Made by a program: the position numbers and the translations under genes
NCBI RefSeq assembly: GCF_022811725.1
Contig: NZ_CP094527.1
Location: 6,820,001-6,884,000 of the forward strand
Direction of reading: 5' to 3'
DNA length: 64,000 nt
Source of the DNA: Mucilaginibacter sp. SMC90
GTDB taxonomy: Bacteria; Bacteroidota; Bacteroidia; Sphingobacteriales; Sphingobacteriaceae
Part shown: positions 1-9,058 of the stretch, one piece after another
Numbering within the stretch: position 1 is the first letter of the stretch
Layout of the letters: every line of letters starts with the position of its first letter
Notes under the pieces: model-generated
Databases searched by the model: none
What the model saw: the letters and a program-made list of their open reading frames with translations, nothing else
What the model was told of the DNA's origin: nothing

Positions 1-84
1 AATTACCGGCTGGGACAAACGGAATTAAACTGGGAAACCGAAAGCCACGTATTTTTGGAGCTGGTTCAAAACGTATTAAATTGA
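1..84 (+). CDS. C-terminal end of a probable glycosyltransferase (partial)
   Basis: Frame 1 is open from the window edge to a TGA at 82-84 and gives 27 residues ending in ESHVFLELVQNVLN. The stop overlaps the TTG start of the next glycosyltransferase in a TTGA junction, as expected for translationally coupled genes. A short Trp/Glu-containing tail of this kind is common at the end of GT4-type glycosyltransferases, and the operon context agrees, but too little is visible to assign a function. The gene starts outside the window. Confidence 0.5.
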   Translation, partial: NYRLGQTELNWETESHVFLELVQNVLN

Positions 85-1364
85 ATAAAAAGCTACTCAT
101 TATTTCGCCATACTTCCCGCCGGTAAATGCAGCGGATATGCAGCGCGTGAGGATGAGCCTGCCTTATTTTGCAGCTTATGGCTGGGATGCCGAGGTTGTT
201 ACCATAGATGAGCGATATGCCGACATGGCAAAGGACGAGCTATTGCTGCAAAGCGTTCCTCCCGGCATTAAAGTTCACAAAGTAAAAGCCTTAAGCAAAA
301 CGTTCACTTCAAAAGTTGGATTAGGCAGCGTTGCTATACGTTCACTATGGTACTATCGCAAAACAGTTAACCGCCTGCTTAGGGATAACAAATTTGATCT
401 TATTTATTTCTCAACCACACAATTCCCGGTTTGTACATTGGGCGCTTACTGGAAAAAGCGCTTTGGCATCTCCTATGTTATCGATATGCAGGACCCATGG
501 CACTCAGACTATTATATCAACAAGCCGAAAAACGAGCGGCCTCCCAAATACTGGTTTGCCTATCAATTAAATAAATACCTGGAGCCAATCGCCATAAAAA
601 ATGCAGCCGGACTTATCAGCGTATCTGCAGCATACATTGACGAACTTAAATCGCGCTATCCTGTAATTCAAAGCATCCCGGCGGCAACCATAACATTCGG
701 AGCCTTTGAACCGGATTTGCAAATAGCAAAGGATAATCAAAAGCTTTTTACCAGCTTGCTTGATAAAAACTCCGTCAACATAGTATATATCGGTCGTGGG
801 GGCAAGGATATGCATAAAGCTATAAGCCCGGTGTTTAAGGCATTGCAAACGGGGCTAAAAGAAAACGGCGAGCAATACGCCAAAATAAAATTATATTTCA
901 TTGGCACCAGCTATGCCGCTGCCGGTAAGGGAATAGCTACTATACTCCCGCTGGCAAAGCATCTTGATATTGAAGACCACGTTATTGAAATTACAGACAG
1001 GATCAGCTACTATCAAACCCTGCTCACCCTGCAGCAAGCCGATGCACTTTTTATCCCGGGATCGGATGATCCTAAATATACTGCGTCAAAGATATTTCCT
1101 TACCTGCTTACCCGGAAACCAATACTGGCCATATTTAATGCTGCAAGTTCTGCAATACCTATCATGCGGCAATATGGGGTAAAGCATGTTTATGATTATG
1201 ATAATATAACCTCAGAAAAGCTTTCTGCATTTTTTGAACAATTAATTAAAGCAAATTTCAACCCTGTTGAATACAGTGCCGATGCTATTAAAAAATATTC
1301 GGCACAGGAAATGACATTGGCGCAGTGCCGCTTATTTGATAAAATTACTAATGAATGCTGTTAA
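81..1364 (+). CDS. Glycosyltransferase, GT4-like (GT-B fold)
   Basis: A 427-residue cytoplasmic protein that probably transfers a sugar from a nucleotide sugar during surface-polysaccharide assembly. The N-terminus KLLIISPYFPPVNAADMQR is the typical first strand and glycine/proline loop of GT-B glycosyltransferases. VIDMQDPWHSDYY near residue 135 is typical of the N-terminal acceptor domain. The C-terminal half has the nucleotide-sugar domain pattern, with VYIGRGGKD, LYFIGTS and FIPGSDDPKYTASKIFPYLL, although the usual EGFG/E-x7-E motif is poorly kept. Translation starts at TTG, chosen because it overlaps the preceding stop in a TTGA junction. The 3' end overlaps the next gene by 14 nt. The sugar and acceptor cannot be told from sequence. 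Confidence 0.8.
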   Translation: MNKKLLIISPYFPPVNAADMQRVRMSLPYFAAYGWDAEVVTIDERYADMAKDELLLQSVPPGIKVHKVKALSKTFTSKVGLGSVAIRSLWYYRKTVNRLLRDNKFDLIYFSTTQFPVCTLGAYWKKRFGISYVIDMQDPWHSDYYINKPKNERPPKYWFAYQLNKYLEPIAIKNAAGLISVSAAYIDELKSRYPVIQSIPAATITFGAFEPDLQIAKDNQKLFTSLLDKNSVNIVYIGRGGKDMHKAISPVFKALQTGLKENGEQYAKIKLYFIGTSYAAAGKGIATILPLAKHLDIEDHVIEITDRISYYQTLLTLQQADALFIPGSDDPKYTASKIFPYLLTRKPILAIFNAASSAIPIMRQYGVKHVYDYDNITSEKLSAFFEQLIKANFNPVEYSADAIKKYSAQEMTLAQCRLFDKITNECC

Positions 1365-2241
1365 ACGAACCGTTGGTTTTATATTAGATCATCCTTTGGG
1401 GAAAAGGCACCCTGTAAAAACATTATGGCGCCTGGTTTGGTGGCAGGTTCAGTTACAGCTTTCTCCAAAAAAACTTATTGTAAAGCGCTTTGTTGGCCCT
1501 GTTAAATTTTATGCAAAAAGAGGGTTAACGGGTATTACAAGCAATATTTATACAGGTCTGCATGAGTTTTTCGATATGCTTTTCCTGCTTCATTTTTTAA
1601 AAGCCGAAGATGTTTTTTTTGACATTGGGGCTAATGTGGGCTCCTATACGCTATTGGCATCGGGTATAACAGGTGCAAAAAGTATTGCACTTGAACCTGT
1701 AAAAAGCACATTTGATATTTTAAGCAGCAACATTGAACTTAACGCATTACAGGGAAAGGTTAAACTCATTAATGCCGGTGCCGGACCGGTACCGGGCGAG
1801 ATCAGGTTCTCGGCAGATGAAGATACCAGCAACCATGTTATTGCCGAAAATGAAAACAGCGCAAACAGCATTGCCGTACCCGTGATCACTATCGATTCAT
1901 TATTAAACCAATATCAGCCATCATTGATCAAAATAGATGTTGAAGGCTTTGAAACCGAGGTGCTGAAGGGCATGACCGCGACGCTCAATTCACCTGCACT
2001 AAAAGCTATTATTATCGAATTAAACGGCAGCGGTGCACGTTATGGTTTTAATGATCTTGATATCCATAATTTGCTGCTATCAAAAAACTTTGCTGCCTAC
2101 TATTATGATCCCTTTACGAGGCAACTAAAAAACGCCCCGTCCTACGGCACCCATAACACGCTTTATTGCCGCGACCTTGCTTTTGTACAAGAGCGAATTG
2201 AAAAAGCAACACCTGTCAAAATATTGGGCGAAGCTATTTAA
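1351..2241 (+). CDS. FkbM-family SAM-dependent methyltransferase
   Basis: Class I methyltransferase with the FkbM domain, about 296 residues. From the ATG at 1351, the SAM-binding loop DIGANVGSY is at about residues 91-99, with an acidic ribose-binding position in IALEPVKSTF. The diagnostic FkbM segment IKIDVEGFETEVLKGM follows near residue 197. In polysaccharide loci FkbM proteins usually methylate sugar hydroxyls, so O-methylation of the glycan is the likely role. The frame is open back to a TTG at 1336, but the ATG at 1351 gives the common 14-nt overlap with the upstream gene and is preferred. The stop TAA is immediately followed by the ATG of the next gene. Confidence 0.82.
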   Translation: MNAVKRTVGFILDHPLGKRHPVKTLWRLVWWQVQLQLSPKKLIVKRFVGPVKFYAKRGLTGITSNIYTGLHEFFDMLFLLHFLKAEDVFFDIGANVGSYTLLASGITGAKSIALEPVKSTFDILSSNIELNALQGKVKLINAGAGPVPGEIRFSADEDTSNHVIAENENSANSIAVPVITIDSLLNQYQPSLIKIDVEGFETEVLKGMTATLNSPALKAIIIELNGSGARYGFNDLDIHNLLLSKNFAAYYYDPFTRQLKNAPSYGTHNTLYCRDLAFVQERIEKATPVKILGEAI

Positions 2242-3405
2242 ATGAAAAAATTAGCCATCATTATTACTCATCCTATACAATACTATGCCCCGGTATTTAA
2301 GCTGCTGCATCAACGGCAAAAAATAAATATCATGGTATTTTATACATGGGGCGAAGGAAGCGCACAAAAGTTTGATCCCGGCTTTGGCAAAAACATTAAC
2401 TGGGATGTTCCGCTGCTTGAGGGCTATCCCTATGAATGGGTAAAGAATATTTCACCAGATCCCGGTTCACATCACTCAAAAGGGATAGATAACCCAGATC
2501 TTATCAATCAGATTAATAACTGGAACCCTGATGCTATAATGGTATATGGCTGGTTTTATAAAAGCCACCTTAAAACTCTTAAATATTTCAAAGGCCGGAT
2601 ACCTGTTATTTTTCGGGGCGATTCAACTTTACTTGATGATGCGGGCGGGGTTAAATCATTATTACGAAGTCTGTTTTTAAAACGAATTTACCGCAATGTT
2701 GATTACGCCCTGTATACAGGATCAAACAACAAGGCCTATTTTAAAAAATTCGGATTAAAAGAAACGCAATTATTTTTTGCACCGCACGCCATAGATAATG
2801 ACCGTTTCACTACCGGCAGAACGGATGAAGCCCTGGCCTTGCGCAATCAGTTAGGCATAACTGAACACGAAAAGCTACTGCTTTTTGCAGGCAAGTTTGA
2901 AGGTAAAAAAAATCCGCTGCTGCTGCTTGAAGCATTTATAGAAATAAACCAGCCCAATACTCACCTGCTGTTTGCCGGCAATGGCATTTTAGAGATAGAG
3001 TTGAAAAATCGGGCGAGCCGGCATAAAAACGTACACTTTATTGATTTTCAAAATCAGCTTAATATGCCGGTTGTATACCAGGCCTGTGATATTTTTTGCC
3101 TCCCCTCAAAAGGGCCCGGCGAAACCTGGGGATTGGCCATAAATGAGGCCATGGCCTGCAGCAAACCCATCCTTATATCCAACAAGGTTGGCGCCGGTAC
3201 CGACCTGGTAAAAGACAATATAAACGGTTTTATATTTAACTCAGGTGATATTGGCGATCTTAAAAGCAAATTAAATACTTTGTTTCTGTATAATAAAACA
3301 GCTTTATTTACAATGGGGCAACAGTCCAGGCAAATAATAGCCGAATGGAGCTTTGATAAACAGGTGGGGGCGATTGAACAATTAGTAATAAATGCAGCAA
3401 AGTAA
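2242..3405 (+). CDS. Glycosyltransferase family 4
   Basis: A 387-residue GT-B glycosyltransferase. The start KKLAIIITHPIQYYAPVFK is typical of this group. The C-terminal nucleotide-sugar domain runs from about residue 205, with LLLFAGKFEGKKNPLLLLEA, then HLLFAGNG, then FCLPSKGPGETWGLAINEAM near residues 285-305. That last segment carries the E-x7-E-type donor site in which the second Glu lies in NEAMA. The start codon abuts the preceding stop and the end overlaps the next gene by 14 nt, so it is part of one transcription unit. Families annotated as XrtY-associated glycosyltransferases exist in Sphingobacteriaceae, and membership is plausible but cannot be proven here. Confidence 0.85.
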   Translation: MKKLAIIITHPIQYYAPVFKLLHQRQKINIMVFYTWGEGSAQKFDPGFGKNINWDVPLLEGYPYEWVKNISPDPGSHHSKGIDNPDLINQINNWNPDAIMVYGWFYKSHLKTLKYFKGRIPVIFRGDSTLLDDAGGVKSLLRSLFLKRIYRNVDYALYTGSNNKAYFKKFGLKETQLFFAPHAIDNDRFTTGRTDEALALRNQLGITEHEKLLLFAGKFEGKKNPLLLLEAFIEINQPNTHLLFAGNGILEIELKNRASRHKNVHFIDFQNQLNMPVVYQACDIFCLPSKGPGETWGLAINEAMACSKPILISNKVGAGTDLVKDNINGFIFNSGDIGDLKSKLNTLFLYNKTALFTMGQQSRQIIAEWSFDKQVGAIEQLVINAAK

Positions 3406-4801
3406 ATCGATAGAGCGGTATATTATATTGTTTATACCATGGCTGCTGGCACTGGCATGTAAAAGTGATAGCGTATTATCATATTTTATTGCGTGGGGCG
3501 GCTCATTTTTCATATTTCTGATAACACTTACCGGCTGGGTACGCCCAATCCCTGGCGATCGTCCGATGGCCGAACAGCTGATGAGGCCCTTATTTATCAT
3601 CCAGATAATTTTTGCAGGGTACATGTGTTGTACATCTATTTTTTATTTCATGAATACGCTCGGCTATGAAAACTTCAAGCACGTTTTTATTCACACTTTA
3701 AATGATAAGGATACCTTGGGTTTAATTGCGCAATGCCAGCGTTATTATTGCCTTGGGCATGCGTCTTTTGTAATGGGCGTTCTCATTTTCATGAACTACC
3801 CGGTAGTTAAAAAATACTACATCGAAACCGAAAAGCTGGCCAACCTGCTCATGATGTCGGCTATAATCAGTTTCCCGCTTTCACTGTTATTTCTTAAGGT
3901 TCCCGGCCTTTCGCAGTTTTATTACCAGTTTAGTTCATTAAGTTTTATTGCAGGCACGTTAGCACTGGCCTTTGCTATCCCGTTAAAAAAAGCTGCTAAC
4001 ACGCTTATCTGTTTTTTACTATATGGCTTTAACTTTTATCAGGCGCTCACTTCGGGGTTTAAAGAGCCCATTATTATAAGTGTGTTGGTTTTGGGTATTT
4101 TTCTGTACCCTACCTATAAAAAATTGGTGGCTATAACTTTTATCCCCATTATCTTTTTACTATTCACTGTACTGCCCACGTATAACCATATTTACCGGGC
4201 CAACGCCTGGAATGGAGATACTAACAGCGACGAAGCCTCCCAACTGGCACTTGATGCCGCATTGAATGGAGATGATAGCGATGTTAAAGAAACTAACTGG
4301 GATTTTTTAGTATACCGCTTGAGTGAGATCGACATGTTTACCCGTTTTGTGCAGTCGACCCCTAAAACTATCGATTTTTATGGCTTTGATCTTGTAAAGC
4401 AATCAGCCATCGCTTTAATACCCCGGATATTATGGCCTTCCAAACCCATAACCGAAGACATGATCATGCAGCGTGTTTACGATGCCGGGGTTGTTAACCG
4501 CAACTCTAACGTATCGGCCAAACCTGCCTACATAGTTGATGCATATCTATCGGGCGGTGATTTGGCAATCTTCATTTTCCTTTTTGGTTACGGTGCCATT
4601 GCCCAGCTCATAGCCGTTAAGGCCGAGAAACTTTTTGGTGGATATATATTAGGCACGGCACTTATATTTTCGGGCCTGTTCCAGATCATGTGGCGCGGTA
4701 TCAGTTTCGAGTTTTTGTTCAATACTATTTTTTGGAGTTATATCAGCATGCTGCTTATTCATAAGGCATTGATAAGTTCTAAAATTTTAAAAGTGATTTA
4801 A
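3392..4801 (+). CDS. Polytopic membrane protein, Wzy-like polymerase candidate of the exosortase locus
   Basis: A 469-residue protein with about ten to twelve hydrophobic segments and one long non-membrane loop at about residues 265-350. The loop is rich in Asp/Asn/Thr and includes LALDAALNGDDSDVKETNWDF. This layout, many helices with one large loop toward the C-terminus, is what O-antigen polymerases and ligases (Wzy/WaaL) show. The position between glycosyltransferases and an exosortase matches the exosortase Y-associated Wzy-like proteins known from Sphingobacteriaceae. LWPSKPITEDMIM near residue 350 resembles a motif common in oligosaccharide polymerases of this group. The assignment is inference from topology and context. 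A flippase role is the main alternative. Confidence 0.6.
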   Translation: MQQSKSIERYIILFIPWLLALACKSDSVLSYFIAWGGSFFIFLITLTGWVRPIPGDRPMAEQLMRPLFIIQIIFAGYMCCTSIFYFMNTLGYENFKHVFIHTLNDKDTLGLIAQCQRYYCLGHASFVMGVLIFMNYPVVKKYYIETEKLANLLMMSAIISFPLSLLFLKVPGLSQFYYQFSSLSFIAGTLALAFAIPLKKAANTLICFLLYGFNFYQALTSGFKEPIIISVLVLGIFLYPTYKKLVAITFIPIIFLLFTVLPTYNHIYRANAWNGDTNSDEASQLALDAALNGDDSDVKETNWDFLVYRLSEIDMFTRFVQSTPKTIDFYGFDLVKQSAIALIPRILWPSKPITEDMIMQRVYDAGVVNRNSNVSAKPAYIVDAYLSGGDLAIFIFLFGYGAIAQLIAVKAEKLFGGYILGTALIFSGLFQIMWRGISFEFLFNTIFWSYISMLLIHKALISSKILKVI

Positions 4802-4871
4802 AGATCAACGGGGCTTAAAAGAGCCGCGATAACGAAAAACATATCAATATGCACCTGCAATTAACAAGTAT

Positions 4872-5495
4872 ATGAGCGCTTATAAAGATTACGATTATCC
4901 AGATGCAAGTCCCTGCCACGTATTTAAGGAAATCGAGAAACCGCTTATGTCGTTATTAAATAAAGATATCAACAGCAGTATTCTTGACCTTGGCTGCGGC
5001 AACGGGCACCTGGTAAACTATTTGCTTGCCAGGGGATTTAATGCTTACGGCATTGATGCATCCAAACCCGGCATTGCTATAGCTGATAAGATAAACCCCG
5101 GCAGGTTTTTCGTACATGACCTTTCTGTTGAAGGCTTGCCGCAACCGTTGAAAGGAATGCGGTTTAACACCATCATCTCAACCGAAGTTATTGAGCATTT
5201 ATACGATCCCTATGCTTTTATACGCCTTTGCCGGGATGTTTTAAGCGAATCAAAAGGAGAACTTATCATATCCACTCCTTACCACGGCTACTTAAAGAAC
5301 TTATTTTTAAGTATCCTCAACAAGTGGGATAACCATATCAGCCCCTTATGGCAGGGCGGGCATATCAAATTCTGGTCGGTTAAAACGCTTACGCAAATCC
5401 TAAATGAACACGGGTTTGAAGTAACTGCATTCAGGGGTTGCGGCAGGTTCCCCTATTTTTGGATGACCATGTTAGTTAAAGCCAAACTCAAGTGA
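4872..5495 (+). CDS. Class I SAM-dependent methyltransferase
   Basis: A 207-residue Methyltransf_11/23-type protein. Motif I ILDLGCGNGHL is at about residues 37-47, an acidic residue follows in AYGIDASKPGIA (motif II), and STEVIEHLYDP near 110 is the motif IV segment typical of small-molecule methyltransferases. It follows the Wzy-like gene after about 70 nt and overlaps the next glycosyltransferase by 4 nt (GTGA). In this setting it probably modifies a sugar or lipid-linked intermediate. It is not closely similar to the FkbM protein at 1351-2241, so the locus has two unrelated methyltransferases. Confidence 0.82.
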   Translation: MSAYKDYDYPDASPCHVFKEIEKPLMSLLNKDINSSILDLGCGNGHLVNYLLARGFNAYGIDASKPGIAIADKINPGRFFVHDLSVEGLPQPLKGMRFNTIISTEVIEHLYDPYAFIRLCRDVLSESKGELIISTPYHGYLKNLFLSILNKWDNHISPLWQGGHIKFWSVKTLTQILNEHGFEVTAFRGCGRFPYFWMTMLVKAKLK

Positions 5496-6355
5496 GCGAA
5501 ACTCTCGACATTGTAATTTTAACTTTCAATGAAGAGAAAAATATTGGCGACTGCCTGCAAAGTGCATCGGCATTAAAGGCCAATATCTATATTGTCGATT
5601 CGGGCTCAACCGATAATACTTTAACCATTTGTCAAAAATATACGCATAATATTTTCAGTCACCCGTTTGAAAACTATGCGGCCCAACGCAACTGGGCGCT
5701 GGATACCCTGCCGCTAACAGGCACCTGGGTACTTAACCTCGATGCCGATCACCGGGTAACGCCAGAACTTGCACATCAGCTAAATGACATTTTTAGTAAG
5801 CCGGTAGACCCGGAAACAAACGGCTTCCTGATAAGCAGGCGTACCATGTTCATGGGTAAGTGGATAAAACATGGTGGCCACTATCCTACCTATCACGCCA
5901 ACCTGTTCAGGAAAGGTTTTGGGCGCTGCGAGGAAAAACTATATGACCAGCATTTTAAAGTCACCGGCAAAACACAGGTACTTAAAACCGACATTGTTGA
6001 CGTTATAACTGACTCGCTTACCAGTTTCATTGCCCGGCACAACCATTGGGCAACGCTGGAAGCCCAATACCTTGTTGAGCAGCAAAACACGCCTATAATT
6101 GATGATAACGGCAAACTGGTACATCCCCGCTTATTTGGCAACCCGATGGAGCGCCGCCGTTTTATGAAAAAACGGTACGAAGCATTTCCTTTATTTGTAA
6201 GGCCTGTAATCTATTTTACGATAAGGTATTTTATGAAGCTTGGTTTTTTAGATGGGAAAACCGGATTGGTATTCCATTTTTTACAGGGCTTTTGGTTCAG
6301 GTTTTTGATTGATGCTAAAATTTATGAGTTACGAAAGGAGAGCAAAAAACGATGA
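5492..6355 (+). CDS. Glycosyltransferase family 2 (WaaE/KdtX-like)
   Basis: A 287-residue GT-A inverting glycosyltransferase. LDIVILTFNEEKNIGDCL opens the nucleotide-binding domain, IVDSGSTDNT near residue 34 binds the uridine, and the metal-binding DxD is D84-A-D86 in LNLDADHRVT. The C-terminal part has hydrophobic stretches around residues 225-270 (RPVIYFTIRYF, FHFLQGFWF), suggesting membrane association as in the LPS core beta-glucosyltransferases of the WaaE type. It starts with GTG overlapping the previous stop (GTGA) and ends in an ATGA overlap with the exosortase gene. This placement suggests it acts on the same glycan. Confidence 0.85.
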   Translation: MSETLDIVILTFNEEKNIGDCLQSASALKANIYIVDSGSTDNTLTICQKYTHNIFSHPFENYAAQRNWALDTLPLTGTWVLNLDADHRVTPELAHQLNDIFSKPVDPETNGFLISRRTMFMGKWIKHGGHYPTYHANLFRKGFGRCEEKLYDQHFKVTGKTQVLKTDIVDVITDSLTSFIARHNHWATLEAQYLVEQQNTPIIDDNGKLVHPRLFGNPMERRRFMKKRYEAFPLFVRPVIYFTIRYFMKLGFLDGKTGLVFHFLQGFWFRFLIDAKIYELRKESKKR

Positions 6356-6918
6356 AACGGCCCGCATTTTTTAACAATCCTGCAACACGGTTCATGCTGT
6401 TGTTTGTATTACTGTTTGCAGTTTTTTACAGCTTTAATATTATCTTTTTTGGCATTACCACCCCCGGCGGAAATTACAACCCTTTTTTGGCCGAACATTT
6501 AAATTACATTGCAGTTTTAAGGCAGGCTTTGCTGGATTGCAGCGTAATGATCCTGAAGTGGCTCGGGTACGCCGCTATCGATAATAATTACGAGCTATTG
6601 GTTGCAGGCAAAGGAACGCTGGCCATAGTTTACAGCTGCCTCGGTTTGGGATTGATCAGCTTTTTTTCTGCCTTTGTACTGGCTTATCCATCTCCGCTGC
6701 GCTCAAAATTGATATTTCTGATCTCGGGCATTTTAGTGATCGAATTTTTAAACGTAATGCGCTTTGTTCTGCTGGCCATCTTCTGGTCAAAAAAGGCAAA
6801 CCGGATAGTTGACCATCATACCATTTTTAATATCATACTTTACATCATTATTGCGCTTAGCCTGTATATTTGGATTAAACGTAACGACAAGCTTACCGGT
6901 ACTGATGCCCAGAACTGA
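6352..6918 (+). CDS. xrtY: Exosortase/archaeosortase family protein, XrtY-like
   Basis: A 188-residue integral membrane cysteine transpeptidase. Members of the family cut a C-terminal sorting signal of exported proteins and attach them to a surface glycan or lipid. The catalytic triad is visible: Cys96 in YSCLGLGLISFF, Arg137 in FLNVMRFVLL and His155/His156 in VDHHTIFN, the N-x2-R and H spacing of the family. Four or five hydrophobic segments surround these residues. The protein is a bare core without the C-terminal EpsI domain of the longer exosortases. The gene sits among glycosyltransferases, as exosortases do. The XrtY subtype is inferred from taxon, size and context. No substrate with a sorting tail is in the window. 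Confidence 0.82.
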   Translation: MKRPAFFNNPATRFMLLFVLLFAVFYSFNIIFFGITTPGGNYNPFLAEHLNYIAVLRQALLDCSVMILKWLGYAAIDNNYELLVAGKGTLAIVYSCLGLGLISFFSAFVLAYPSPLRSKLIFLISGILVIEFLNVMRFVLLAIFWSKKANRIVDHHTIFNIILYIIIALSLYIWIKRNDKLTGTDAQN

Positions 6919-7456
6919 TCTATCAACTTATAACAATCATCCATACAATCCGGGCGGCAATGCTTTTAAACGTATTTTATGGTATTATTTTAATGCGGTA
7001 TTCTTTAAAACAAGCATTATACCCTCAAGCGGGTTCAAAGTATTTTTCCTGAGGTTATTTGGTGCCAGGATTGGTAAAAACGTGACTATAAAGCCCTGTG
7101 TAAATGTTAAATATCCGTGGAACCTCCATATAGGCGACGAAACCTGGGTAGGTGAAAATGTTTGGATAGATAGTTTGGTACTTATCCAAATTGGGGCGAA
7201 TGTGTGCCTGTCGCAAGGGGCTGTGCTGTTAACCGGCAGCCATAATTACAAAAAAACATCCTTTGATTTGATAACCAAAGGTATAATTTTGGAAGATGGC
7301 GTATGGATCTGTGCCGGGGCAATGGTAAACCCGGGTGTAACGGCCGCATCACACGCTGTACTGACAAGCGGGTCCATCGCCACAAAAAATCTGGAAGCTT
7401 ACAGTGTTTACCAGGGCAACCCTGCAATAAAGGTCAGGGAGCGGGAAATCAGTTAA
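6905..7456 (+). CDS. Acyltransferase, left-handed beta-helix (WcaF-like)
   Basis: A 183-residue hexapeptide-repeat transferase resembling colanic-acid O-acetyltransferase WcaF. After a hydrophobic, basic N-terminal helix (KRILWYYFNAVFF) come isoleucine-rich hexapeptide turns: IGKNVTIKPCVNV, IGDETWVGENVWID, IGANVCLSQGAVLL and LEDGVWICAGAMVNPGV. The catalytic-type His is in LLTGSHNY. It would transfer an acetyl group from acetyl-CoA to a sugar hydroxyl. The open frame reaches back to 6809 inside the exosortase gene, but the ATG at 6905 overlaps the exosortase stop by 14 nt and matches the family's usual start. Confidence 0.85.
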   Translation: MPRTDLSTYNNHPYNPGGNAFKRILWYYFNAVFFKTSIIPSSGFKVFFLRLFGARIGKNVTIKPCVNVKYPWNLHIGDETWVGENVWIDSLVLIQIGANVCLSQGAVLLTGSHNYKKTSFDLITKGIILEDGVWICAGAMVNPGVTAASHAVLTSGSIATKNLEAYSVYQGNPAIKVREREIS

Positions 7457-7486
7457 AAAATTACATCATCTGCTTAAAATAACTTT

Positions 7487-9058
7487 ATGTTAAATCAAAA
7501 ACTACAAACCCATCAAATCATTTTATTGGTTATGAGCGGGATTGTTTTTATTATGGGCATTATGCTGATCTTAGCCCCGGCAGCTATTTATCCCGATCCC
7601 AGTAAGGGCTTCCAGGTTATGCGCTCAATGGAACTGGGATCTGCGTTTAATATCAACGTAAAGCCCGATCAGAGCGATATCAGCAAAAACACATCTGAGT
7701 TTTTAGCATGGTGGTCGCCGGGCCAATACCTGGTTCCTTATTTTTTCAAGCTCGTTTTTGGCGTCAACACGGGTCAGGCATCTTCTGTAGCAACTTTACT
7801 GTTCTCGTTATCCGGAATCTTCGGATTTTATTATTTTTTTAAAAAAGCAGGCTTTACGCCAATGATCTCGGCTTTAAGCGTGCTGTTCATCTTACTTCAG
7901 TTATCTTTTTTTACACCCTATGTATTTTATAACGGAGGCGAGGTACTACTTTTTGGCTATACCGGCTGGTTTTTATACGGATGCATAGCCATTGAAAAAA
8001 CCGACTGGAAACTGGCTGCATTCCTTTTTATAGGCGGGATATTCGGCTTCATTTGCAAATCGTCATTTTTATGGATGTATGCTGCCGCCTGCTGCTTTTT
8101 ATGGCTTAGGCTTTCGATGGGGAAAAAAGATATCATAAGCTGGATAAAAAATGGCGTATGGATAGGGCTCCCTGCTGTGCTTTCATTATTTACCATCTAT
8201 CATTTTTATCTTTCAAAAGGCGGTAATCCATCGTCGATAACCGGGAGCATAAAACTGGCGTGGGAAACTTTCGGCTTCCCGTTGGCCTCACCAATATTAA
8301 CCGCCTTTTCAATAGATGACCTTACCAACGGCCTCTTATTTCATGATGACCCTCCTATGTTTACCTACTTTTGGGGAGTGATAATTGTGCTGATCTGTGC
8401 TGTGTTAAGTATTTTGCTGATCTGGTTTATTGTAAAAAAGGTACACTATAAAAGTTACGTGCTGCTGCTGGTGGTTTTTTACGTAGTATCGGTATTGTTT
8501 TTTGGGCAATCATTTTTGAGACAGGCCAACATATCATATGAAGCAAGGCATTTAAGGCTCATCGGACTCATTGCTGCCCCGGGTATCATTTATTTGATAA
8601 GCGAGCTGCAAACGGGTTTCAAATACTTATTTTATTTTGTGTGTTTTGTCATAGCCTATTCAAGCTACAAATATTTTGTACCAAGTTATTTTCAAAATAA
8701 AAATATAAGTGCACATGGATATTCTGGGATAGCACAGCTATTTATCGATCAGCCATCGTTAAACTACATCCGTAACCTCGATAAGCAAAACTCCAATGCT
8801 ATTTTTGTATTTACCAGTCCTGATCTGAGCCTGGAGATTGAACATAACCGCACCATAACCGTTGAGGCCATTGGCCCCGATGTAGCAATTGATTACGACG
8901 ATTATGTTTACAAAGGTCATGCAGGTCCGCTGTATATCGTTTTGCCTTCCGATTATATCGGGCCCAAATCAACCATAATGCGCAAATGTTTTCCGGGCTA
9001 TAAGGGTTTTAAGATGACTATGTTAAGCAATAGTTATATTTTGTGGGAGGCGAAGTAA
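7487..9058 (+). CDS. Polytopic membrane protein, GT-C-like glycosyltransferase candidate
   Basis: A 523-residue protein with about ten hydrophobic helices in residues 10-415 and a soluble C-terminal domain of about 110 residues. The first extracytoplasmic loop carries YPDPSKGF and EFLAWWSPGQYLVPYFF. An acidic residue in the first loop plus a WxxPG-type stretch is the arrangement seen in GT-C enzymes that use polyprenyl-phosphate sugars. I recognise no named family, so this is inference from topology. It is the last gene of the polysaccharide operon and is followed by a 33-bp-arm hairpin at 9103-9196. Possible roles are adding a sugar outside the membrane or modifying the exosortase-linked glycan. 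Confidence 0.55.
   Translation: MLNQKLQTHQIILLVMSGIVFIMGIMLILAPAAIYPDPSKGFQVMRSMELGSAFNINVKPDQSDISKNTSEFLAWWSPGQYLVPYFFKLVFGVNTGQASSVATLLFSLSGIFGFYYFFKKAGFTPMISALSVLFILLQLSFFTPYVFYNGGEVLLFGYTGWFLYGCIAIEKTDWKLAAFLFIGGIFGFICKSSFLWMYAAACCFLWLRLSMGKKDIISWIKNGVWIGLPAVLSLFTIYHFYLSKGGNPSSITGSIKLAWETFGFPLASPILTAFSIDDLTNGLLFHDDPPMFTYFWGVIIVLICAVLSILLIWFIVKKVHYKSYVLLLVVFYVVSVLFFGQSFLRQANISYEARHLRLIGLIAAPGIIYLISELQTGFKYLFYFVCFVIAYSSYKYFVPSYFQNKNISAHGYSGIAQLFIDQPSLNYIRNLDKQNSNAIFVFTSPDLSLEIEHNRTITVEAIGPDVAIDYDDYVYKGHAGPLYIVLPSDYIGPKSTIMRKCFPGYKGFKMTMLSNSYILWEAK

Follow-up and report, generated by a model that had tools for sequence, protein, structure and literature searches.

Exosortase Y of Mucilaginibacter and related bacteria: candidate substrates with a CP[LI]D-type tail and a glycosyltransferase partner

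Introduction

The active site of an exosortase faces the periplasm. Exosortase substrates are attached to a compound that PMC7468200 describes as unidentified, and ArtA has an active-site Cys (PMC11980579). In the PEP-CTERM/exosortase A (EpsH) system, the exosortase is encoded in an exopolysaccharide (EPS) operon (PMC1569441) with Wza, Wzc and an AsnB-like amidotransferase. The XrtX/PID-CTERM system (NF046081/NF046080) has small secreted proteins that end in a motif, a helix and a basic tail. Type A of the type IX secretion system (T9SS) involves PorU and a linking sugar (PMC7468200). Here we followed up a window of 64,000 nucleotides (the whole stretch of DNA analysed; C1:6820001-6884000 of an 8.13-Mb contig) from the soil bacterium Mucilaginibacter sp. 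SMC90, in which an exosortase of the Y family, XrtY, is encoded at 6352-6918, where a Wza/Wzc polysaccharide operon of ~43 kb has its 3′ end.

Curated models of the exosortase Y family include NF046083 for the enzyme and NF046084 for an associated Wzy-like protein, and the SMC90 proteins score far above both cut-offs. The tag and substrates of the family, a fusion of XrtY with a GT2-type glycosyltransferase, and a T9SS-type neighbour were not found in the models scanned or the literature searched. A literature search for XrtY/exosortase Y, XrtX/exosortase X and PID-CTERM gave nothing relevant, with mention in subscription papers still possible. Comparison of genomes now brings out families of tailed proteins that co-occur and are linked with XrtY, as well as the GT2 fusion and the T9SS-type neighbour. 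We consider it probable that XrtY is the exosortase of a system whose substrates carry the motif CP[LI]D or C-x-x-P-[LI]-D, a membrane helix and a short basic stretch at their C-terminus, and whose product is a peptide carried on a glycan or glycolipid.

Identification of exosortase Y

The ORF (open reading frame) at 6352-6918 is exosortase Y, above the curated NF046083 cut-off. An earlier note on this DNA, made without database searches, had called it an XrtY-type exosortase, and the family search did not place it outside the exosortases (242 bits). Its score against Pfam PF09721 is only 22.5 bits, under the cut-off of 25.7. The associated Wzy-like protein is encoded at the same locus (NF046084, 748 bits). 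Cys96, Arg137 and His155/156, which that note had numbered correctly, were located in the sequence; in an alignment of 19 sequences Cys96, Arg137 and His156 are invariant and His155 is nearly so. A PDB sequence search with the XrtY alignment gave no matches at E≤1. A fold search with a model of a GT2-XrtY fusion (mean predicted local distance difference test score 72) returned glycosyltransferases and synthases among the 50 matches listed, and so left the exosortase part of the model uninformed.

At E≤0.001, PF09721 has one other match in the SMC90 genome, at 198,090, adjoining an XrtN-type VIT protein, which we took as a separate system. This second exosortase spans C1:197879-198731 (L005, L152), and its XrtN-type VIT-domain target lies directly upstream.

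Tail-bearing mini-proteins accompany exosortase Y in Mucilaginibacter

The earlier note had predicted a genome-wide family of proteins with a shared C-terminal sorting tail. A family of this kind that tracks the enzyme was indeed found; its members in SMC90 are two mini-proteins whose genes lie far from the operon and adjoin those of giants with T9SS-like ends. Reading the SMC90 operon and scanning its ORFs revealed no tail-bearing protein. An early scan around XrtY loci gave 25 candidates from 2196 ORFs; it demanded 100 amino acids (aa), hence missed the mini-proteins, and yielded XrtX-type tails, the XrtX-like loci (distant matches) encoding small PID-CTERM-like tailed proteins that adjoin the enzyme. 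When 60 relatives were scanned with PID_CTERM, weak matches appeared to secreted proteins of ~75 aa in XrtY genomes lacking an XrtX-like match. These proteins end in C-x(0-2)-PLD-TW, a helix and a K/R tail, the consensus being mostly C-x(0-2)-P-[LI]-D-[TS]-[WY], then helix and basic tail.

A profile of six such tails (A4; matches at E≤1e-3) found the tail in 24 of the 26 XrtY-positive same-genus genomes (SMC90 included) and in 1 of the 11 XrtY-negative ones; with the six query-source genomes excluded, 18/20 positive genomes still matched. The two misses were G015 (71% complete) and G018 (61%), and the extra match was G012. SMC90 has two tail genes, C1:5059154 (E 1.6e-18) and C1:3996867 (E 2.4e-12), both far from the polysaccharide operon.

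We also searched a 400-genome sample of the order, with scoring limited to the top 8 or 19 candidates of each genome, so that matches and misses in these runs are approximate. The A5 tail (E≤1e-3) was present in 71 of the 73 same-genus genomes with an above-cut-off XrtY (SMC90 uncounted), and the remaining two, G191 and G266, have a CP[LI]DD form instead. In G266 (L336), three CPLD-tailed proteins of 138-152 aa precede Wzc-like and XrtY-type Wzy-like genes, on a contig that differs from that of xrtY. Five same-genus genomes matched A5 without an above-cut-off XrtY: G407 (XrtY E 3.7e-42), G430 (partial XrtY, E 4.2e-26), G088 (weak tail match, E 7.7e-4), G388 and G428. The last dissolved as an exception, its xrtY being cut by a contig end.

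The tails resemble those of the XrtX system and stay under the PID_CTERM cut-off of 26 bits: the best scores were 24.8 and 24.4 among the XrtY-positive genomes without an XrtX-like enzyme that were searched, and SMC90 gave no match at E≤1. The XrtX proteins adjoin their enzyme and have a P[IL][DN]xG-like motif, whereas XrtY tails read CP[LI]D[TD]. The tag also differs from PEP-CTERM, since the SMC90 tail genes are not among the six own-genome TIGR02595 matches at E≤10. As a substrate finder the PEP_CTERM model was rejected: two of the six matches were above the cut-off, but it also matched in 12 of 14 controls (above the cut-off in 2). One of the six is the XrtN target.

A related tail in a Pedobacter-like genus

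A Pedobacter-like genus (code g26), which includes P. duraquae, provided a second group. A profile of eight CP[LI]D[DST] tails (A7) matched 79 of the 400 genomes. XrtY reaches E≤1e-60, a limit set after the scores had been seen, in 59 g26 genomes, and each of them has a CP[LI]DD tail; two of the 59 were query sources. The tail proteins listed are ~90-190 aa long and mostly have a GC...IY-like stretch after the signal; as a rule, their genes head the polysaccharide operon to which the enzyme gene belongs. Linkage could be counted in 54 genomes with both tail and xrtY positions among the matches listed (to E 2.4e-5): the tail gene lies within 60 kb of xrtY in 46, farther away on the same contig in 1 and on other contigs only in 7. 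Of 89 near tail genes, 86 are upstream of xrtY and 89 on the opposite strand, at a median distance of 35 kb.

Four loci read through (G267, G113, G404, G168) account for this arrangement. In all four, the tail genes, which mostly form tandem arrays, are divergent from the Wza/Wzc-like end (named from size and sequence), whereas GT2-XrtY lies at the opposite end or close to it; in G404 and G168, obg and adk come next. In P. duraquae (L147), a tail gene and a T9SS-type giant follow ~4.5 kb after xrtY.

Co-occurrence, relatedness and specificity

To control for relatedness, we used a tree of polynucleotide phosphorylase (PNPase) from 75 genomes: 35 of the 37 same-genus genomes of the relatives set (two had no marker match) and 40 of the 58 further genomes searched, among them all 18 XrtY-negative ones of the 58. 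Both XrtY and the mini-protein were found in 43 genomes, neither in 27, XrtY only in 3 and the mini-protein only in 2. Thus the mini-protein occurs in 43/46 XrtY-positive versus 2/29 XrtY-negative genomes (Fisher p 8e-15, tree ignored), and each trait requires 8 changes on the tree. The tail type was specific as well: G007, G024 and G030, which have an XrtX-like enzyme and no XrtY, carry a PIN-type tail and no A4 match at E≤0.05, and G026 and G029, with both enzymes, carry both tail types. A family with a predicted tripartite C-terminal signal co-occurs with XrtY.

Such counts might also be obtained if the tail proteins were T9SS or export membrane proteins co-inherited with XrtY, their tail being a plain anchor or the target of another protease. 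We think this quite unlikely. The same type of tail is borne by different bodies beside different neighbours in two genera, and in both it tracks XrtY; genomes with an XrtX-like enzyme alone have another tail; and the tail matches PID_CTERM, a protein-sorting domain model, albeit sub-threshold. Co-inheritance would nevertheless account for the 48 of 50 Mucilaginibacter tail genes that come just after a T9SS-like ORF (see below), for the four genomes with a clear tail and no detected XrtY, and for a tree-corrected test that was not significant.

Several observations weigh against the assignment of these tails to XrtY. In that tree-corrected test, ~3 independent pairs agree, none disagrees and ~2 show no difference; with so few pairs the sign test is underpowered and cannot reach significance (p 0.25), and by itself it is compatible with shared descent. 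The Mucilaginibacter tail is absent from four genomes with XrtY (G015, G018, G191 and G266), and a tail without a detected XrtY is seen in G012 (83% complete), G388 (92%) and two g26 genomes, G130 and G147, the G130 tail being near a contig end. In G372, of another genus, no XrtY was found and one tail match is weak (E 9.3e-4). To these are added the approximate nature of the 400-genome counts, the lack of linkage between the SMC90 tail genes and xrtY, and the tie between mini-proteins and their giant neighbours, which is one of gene order only. Finally, none of 21 g26 genomes with a weaker above-cut-off XrtY matches CP[LI]DD (5 weakly match the other tail profile), so that the tail there must differ or be absent. 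Tails of the form VPIDGG or VPVDGG were seen in weaker-XrtY genomes (L271 in G219, L273 in G085, L274 in G383 and L277 in G314), which suggests that the tag may follow the XrtY subtype.

A GT2 glycosyltransferase as the partner of exosortase Y

We then compared the neighbours of XrtY itself. In 26 XrtY loci (25 relatives and SMC90), the GT2 glycosyltransferase and XrtY form a single ORF of ~470 aa in 14 and lie side by side in 12. A wider set of 81 loci (80 named genome contigs and SMC90) had GT2-XrtY fused in 40, split and adjacent in 37 and unresolved in four: in L086, from the metagenome-assembled genome of Mucilaginibacter sp. RYN_310, the mini-protein gene sits between GT2 and xrtY; in L134 GT2 was not found; and in L148 and L149 the frame is broken. 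The latter two are from Mucilaginibacter phenanthrenivorans, which has two GT2-XrtY gene copies with the reading frame broken within XrtY in both. On a tree of these proteins, the fused/split label requires 4 changes, at least 3 of them on well-supported branches. Across the 14 fused proteins, no variation is seen in the DxD of the glycosyltransferase or in the catalytic Cys, Arg and His of the exosortase.

Two loci, L140 and L150, lack an EPS operon in the stretch and yet encode GT2, XrtY and the acetyltransferase. This three-gene cassette lies beside an apparent Mla-type lipid transport operon, as judged from sequence. The linkage in 77/81 loci and these cassettes tie a sugar step to the exosortase itself; GT2 and XrtY form one unit, with GT2 as the closest partner of XrtY. 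Because of this fusion or adjacency and of the loci lacking an EPS operon, we take the core to be GT2-XrtY, usually with the acetyltransferase. The Wzy-like protein, the methyltransferases and the 523-aa protein are common in XrtY loci and not universal. Neighbourhood comparison, which the earlier note had proposed, pointed to GT2 as the closest, often fused partner; the methyltransferases and the gene that it had called GT-C-like are not in every XrtY locus.

A glycosyltransferase fused to XrtY might mean that the exosortase core helps to assemble the glycan and that proteins are not its substrates, as would the failure to find a tail gene in the SMC90 operon. With tail families tracking XrtY and the catalytic Cys, Arg and His kept, we regard this as highly improbable. 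The strong rival concerns the acceptor: XrtY may process the CP[LI]D proteins and attach them to a lipid, the operon merely supplying a coat and GT2 working in coat synthesis. Archaeosortase substrates are lipid-anchored (PMC7157517, PMC11980579), and EpsH-type exosortases recur by EPS loci generally (PMC1569441), so the neighbourhood of XrtY need not mean a glycan acceptor. We hold the lipid acceptor to be a serious possibility, though not the expected outcome, given that 77 of the 81 loci have GT2 either fused to XrtY or next to it and that GT2 stays with XrtY and the acetyltransferase in L140 and L150, where the EPS operon is missing from the stretch.

Mature peptides and giant T9SS-type neighbours

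Of 51 distinct Mucilaginibacter mini-proteins, 47 fit a simple signal-peptide-end pattern (not a predictor). Their predicted mature part up to PLD comprises 15-28 residues (median 20), is rich in Asp, Gly and Pro, and contains exactly two Cys in 47/47. None of the tail proteins compared with NCBIfam (eight) or Pfam (seven) scored above a cut-off.

A Cys stands one or three residues ahead of the motif Pro in all 25 A5 tails, and an invariant Cys of the MYXO-CTERM motif is predicted to be lipidated (PMC11980579). It is therefore conceivable that the Cys before the motif is lipidated and that XrtY just trims the helix, as proposed for MYXO-CTERM. This is unlikely in our judgement: the position of the Cys shifts (CPLD, CDVPLD), some related tails have none (VPIDDG in L147), and the Cys is one of exactly two in the Mucilaginibacter mature peptide, which a disulfide loop fits as well.

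In the 21 genus loci read first, one ORF family adjoins the mini-protein gene in every case, as a giant except for a 90-aa contig-edge remnant in L221. For 48 of 50 distinct mini-protein genes, the ORF just upstream on the same strand has a T9SS-like end and stops 100-900 bases before the stop of the mini-protein gene; the gap is at most 20 bases, or an overlap, in 39/48. The 48 include many orthologs and two genes that come second in a tandem pair, and the model drew on 8 of the 50 loci. In the two remaining cases, the giant follows the gene (L203) or no judgement was possible (L205). As background, a T9SS-like end was seen in 7 of 111 other ORFs of the same loci.

Public models were run on three giants. 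The 2124-aa giant of SMC90, which has laminin-G/concanavalin-like lectin domains and ends 11 bases before its mini-protein, carries a T9SS type A end above the cut-offs (TIGR04183 28.3 bits, cut-off 23; PF18962 32.5, cut-off 27). The T9SS end of the P. duraquae giant is also above the cut-off, and that of the 1175-aa giant of SMC90 is just under it (25.8 bits against 27). The mini-protein differs from type A substrates in that its tail is exosortase-like and has no T9SS end. Small PID/PIN-tailed proteins lie near or adjoining the enzyme in the XrtX-like loci L063-L065 and L067-L070. The large protein beside the small one in L063-L065 has 946 (cut by the contig start), 1416 and 1962 aa, with a T9SS-like end judged by eye in L063 and L065.

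Proposed mechanism

We strongly infer from the sequences that XrtY processes the CP[LI]D-type tail. The tail would retain the protein in the inner membrane, where Cys96 would attack at the motif and the new C-terminus would be handed to an acceptor. Most likely, this acceptor is built or completed by GT2 while bound to a lipid carrier. An amide or amine may be added to the acceptor by the operon's AsnB-like amidotransferase; we propose this role because exosortase genes are repeatedly accompanied by an asparagine-synthase-like gene, a match to P. gingivalis PGN_1234 (PMC7468200). In Mucilaginibacter, the combined action of signal peptidase and XrtY would reduce the mini-protein to an acidic, two-Cys peptide of ~20 residues, and the product would be this peptide joined to the glycan or glycolipid of the locus. 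The earlier note had suggested that the locus may build a methylated and acetylated glycan for such an attachment. The probable role of the peptide is to serve the T9SS-type giant whose gene adjoins its own, perhaps as a surface partner.

More tentatively, and with rather low confidence, GT2-XrtY could be a single-polypeptide protein-to-glycan ligase whose cytoplasmic domain makes the acceptor and whose membrane domain joins the peptide to it, such that a disulfide-looped peptide of ~20 residues caps the glycan that holds giant lectin-domain T9SS adhesins at the cell surface. If so, exosortase sorting, polysaccharide assembly and T9SS display would be combined in one apparatus, and an exosortase acceptor would be identified.

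XrtY gains candidate substrates and a fused glycosyltransferase that points to the maker of the acceptor, and the chemistry of the enzyme becomes testable. For candidates of such small size, intact mass spectrometry could read the mature product in full, and in many Pedobacter-like genomes a single region holds candidate substrate, polysaccharide and enzyme. That the mini-proteins pair with T9SS-type giants suggests that two systems of surface display are concretely linked. In Flavobacterium johnsoniae, biofilm is poor in xrtF mutants as well as in T9SS mutants, and the XrtF substrates were left for future work (PMC10936215).

Genes of the window and the polysaccharide operon

The nine ORFs of positions 1-9058 were all present, and their proteins were searched against Pfam and NCBIfam (Table 1). 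The matches agree with the earlier note on the glycosyltransferases, the two methyltransferases, the Wzy-like candidate and the WcaF-like acetyltransferase. Its label 'GT-C-like' for the 523-aa protein is unproven, as this protein has no family match.

Table 1. Genes at positions 1-9058 of the window
Feature	Position	Strand	Family evidence
GT4-type glycosyltransferase, start uncertain	81-1364	+	PF13579, 30.0 bits, barely above cut-off 29.7
FkbM-family methyltransferase	1336-2241	+	TIGR01444, E 4.7e-30
GT4-type glycosyltransferase	2242-3405	+	PF00534, E 2.4e-30
Exosortase Y-associated Wzy-like membrane protein (polymerase or ligase), 469 aa	3392-4801	+	NF046084, 747.9 bits, cut-off 420
Class-I S-adenosylmethionine (SAM)-dependent methyltransferase	4872-5495	+	PF13489, E 1.4e-21
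GT2 glycosyltransferase, XrtY partner	5492-6355	+	PF00535, E 1.4e-15
Exosortase Y (XrtY)	6352-6918	+	NF046083 exosort_XrtY, 242 bits, cut-off 160, E 3e-72
WcaF-type O-acetyltransferase	6905-7456	+	NF007797, 233.8 bits, cut-off 192
523-aa protein at the 3′ end of the operon	7487-9058	+	No Pfam or NCBIfam match

Overlaps at most junctions, as that note had reported, were borne out: of the 8 junctions 5 overlap, 1 abuts and 2 have gaps (70 and 30 bases). The acetyltransferase start was set at the ATG at 6905 (the ORF is listed from 6809), inside the end of xrtY, which gives 183 aa, the usual size in relatives. Bases 6905-6918 are common to the xrtY end and the acetyltransferase start; the overlap recurs in relatives and fixes the last XrtY residues. 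An -AAN end conserved in many XrtY proteins was rejected as a signal, since it is an artefact of this overlapping start, read in another frame.

A glycan operon, as the earlier note had proposed, is present, but it extends well beyond the genes that this note describes. Its genes, all on one strand, extend back to a Wza-type gene at ~6,785,756, ~34 kb before the window, as read from ORFs of at least 50-100 aa. Its upstream genes encode Wza, Wzc, an UpxY antiterminator, an ABC export pair, an MBOAT protein and many glycosyltransferases. Its AsnB-like amidotransferase scores above the cut-off of TIGR01536 (416 bits) and under that of TIGR03108, the XrtA-system amidotransferase (369 bits).

In a set of 36 related loci (26 with XrtY; some cut by contig ends), the cluster of the 81-1364 protein was found in 22 and that of the 523-aa protein in 20; the FkbM methyltransferase is in part of the XrtY loci only. 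The XrtY-associated glycosyltransferase XYAG1 (NF046085) was not among the nine proteins of Table 1, the 2242-3405 protein giving 33 bits against a cut-off of 400, and was found in the operon of the relative L038 (564 bits). At the locus L060/L124, the XrtY-associated Wzy-like gene occurs in three tandem copies.

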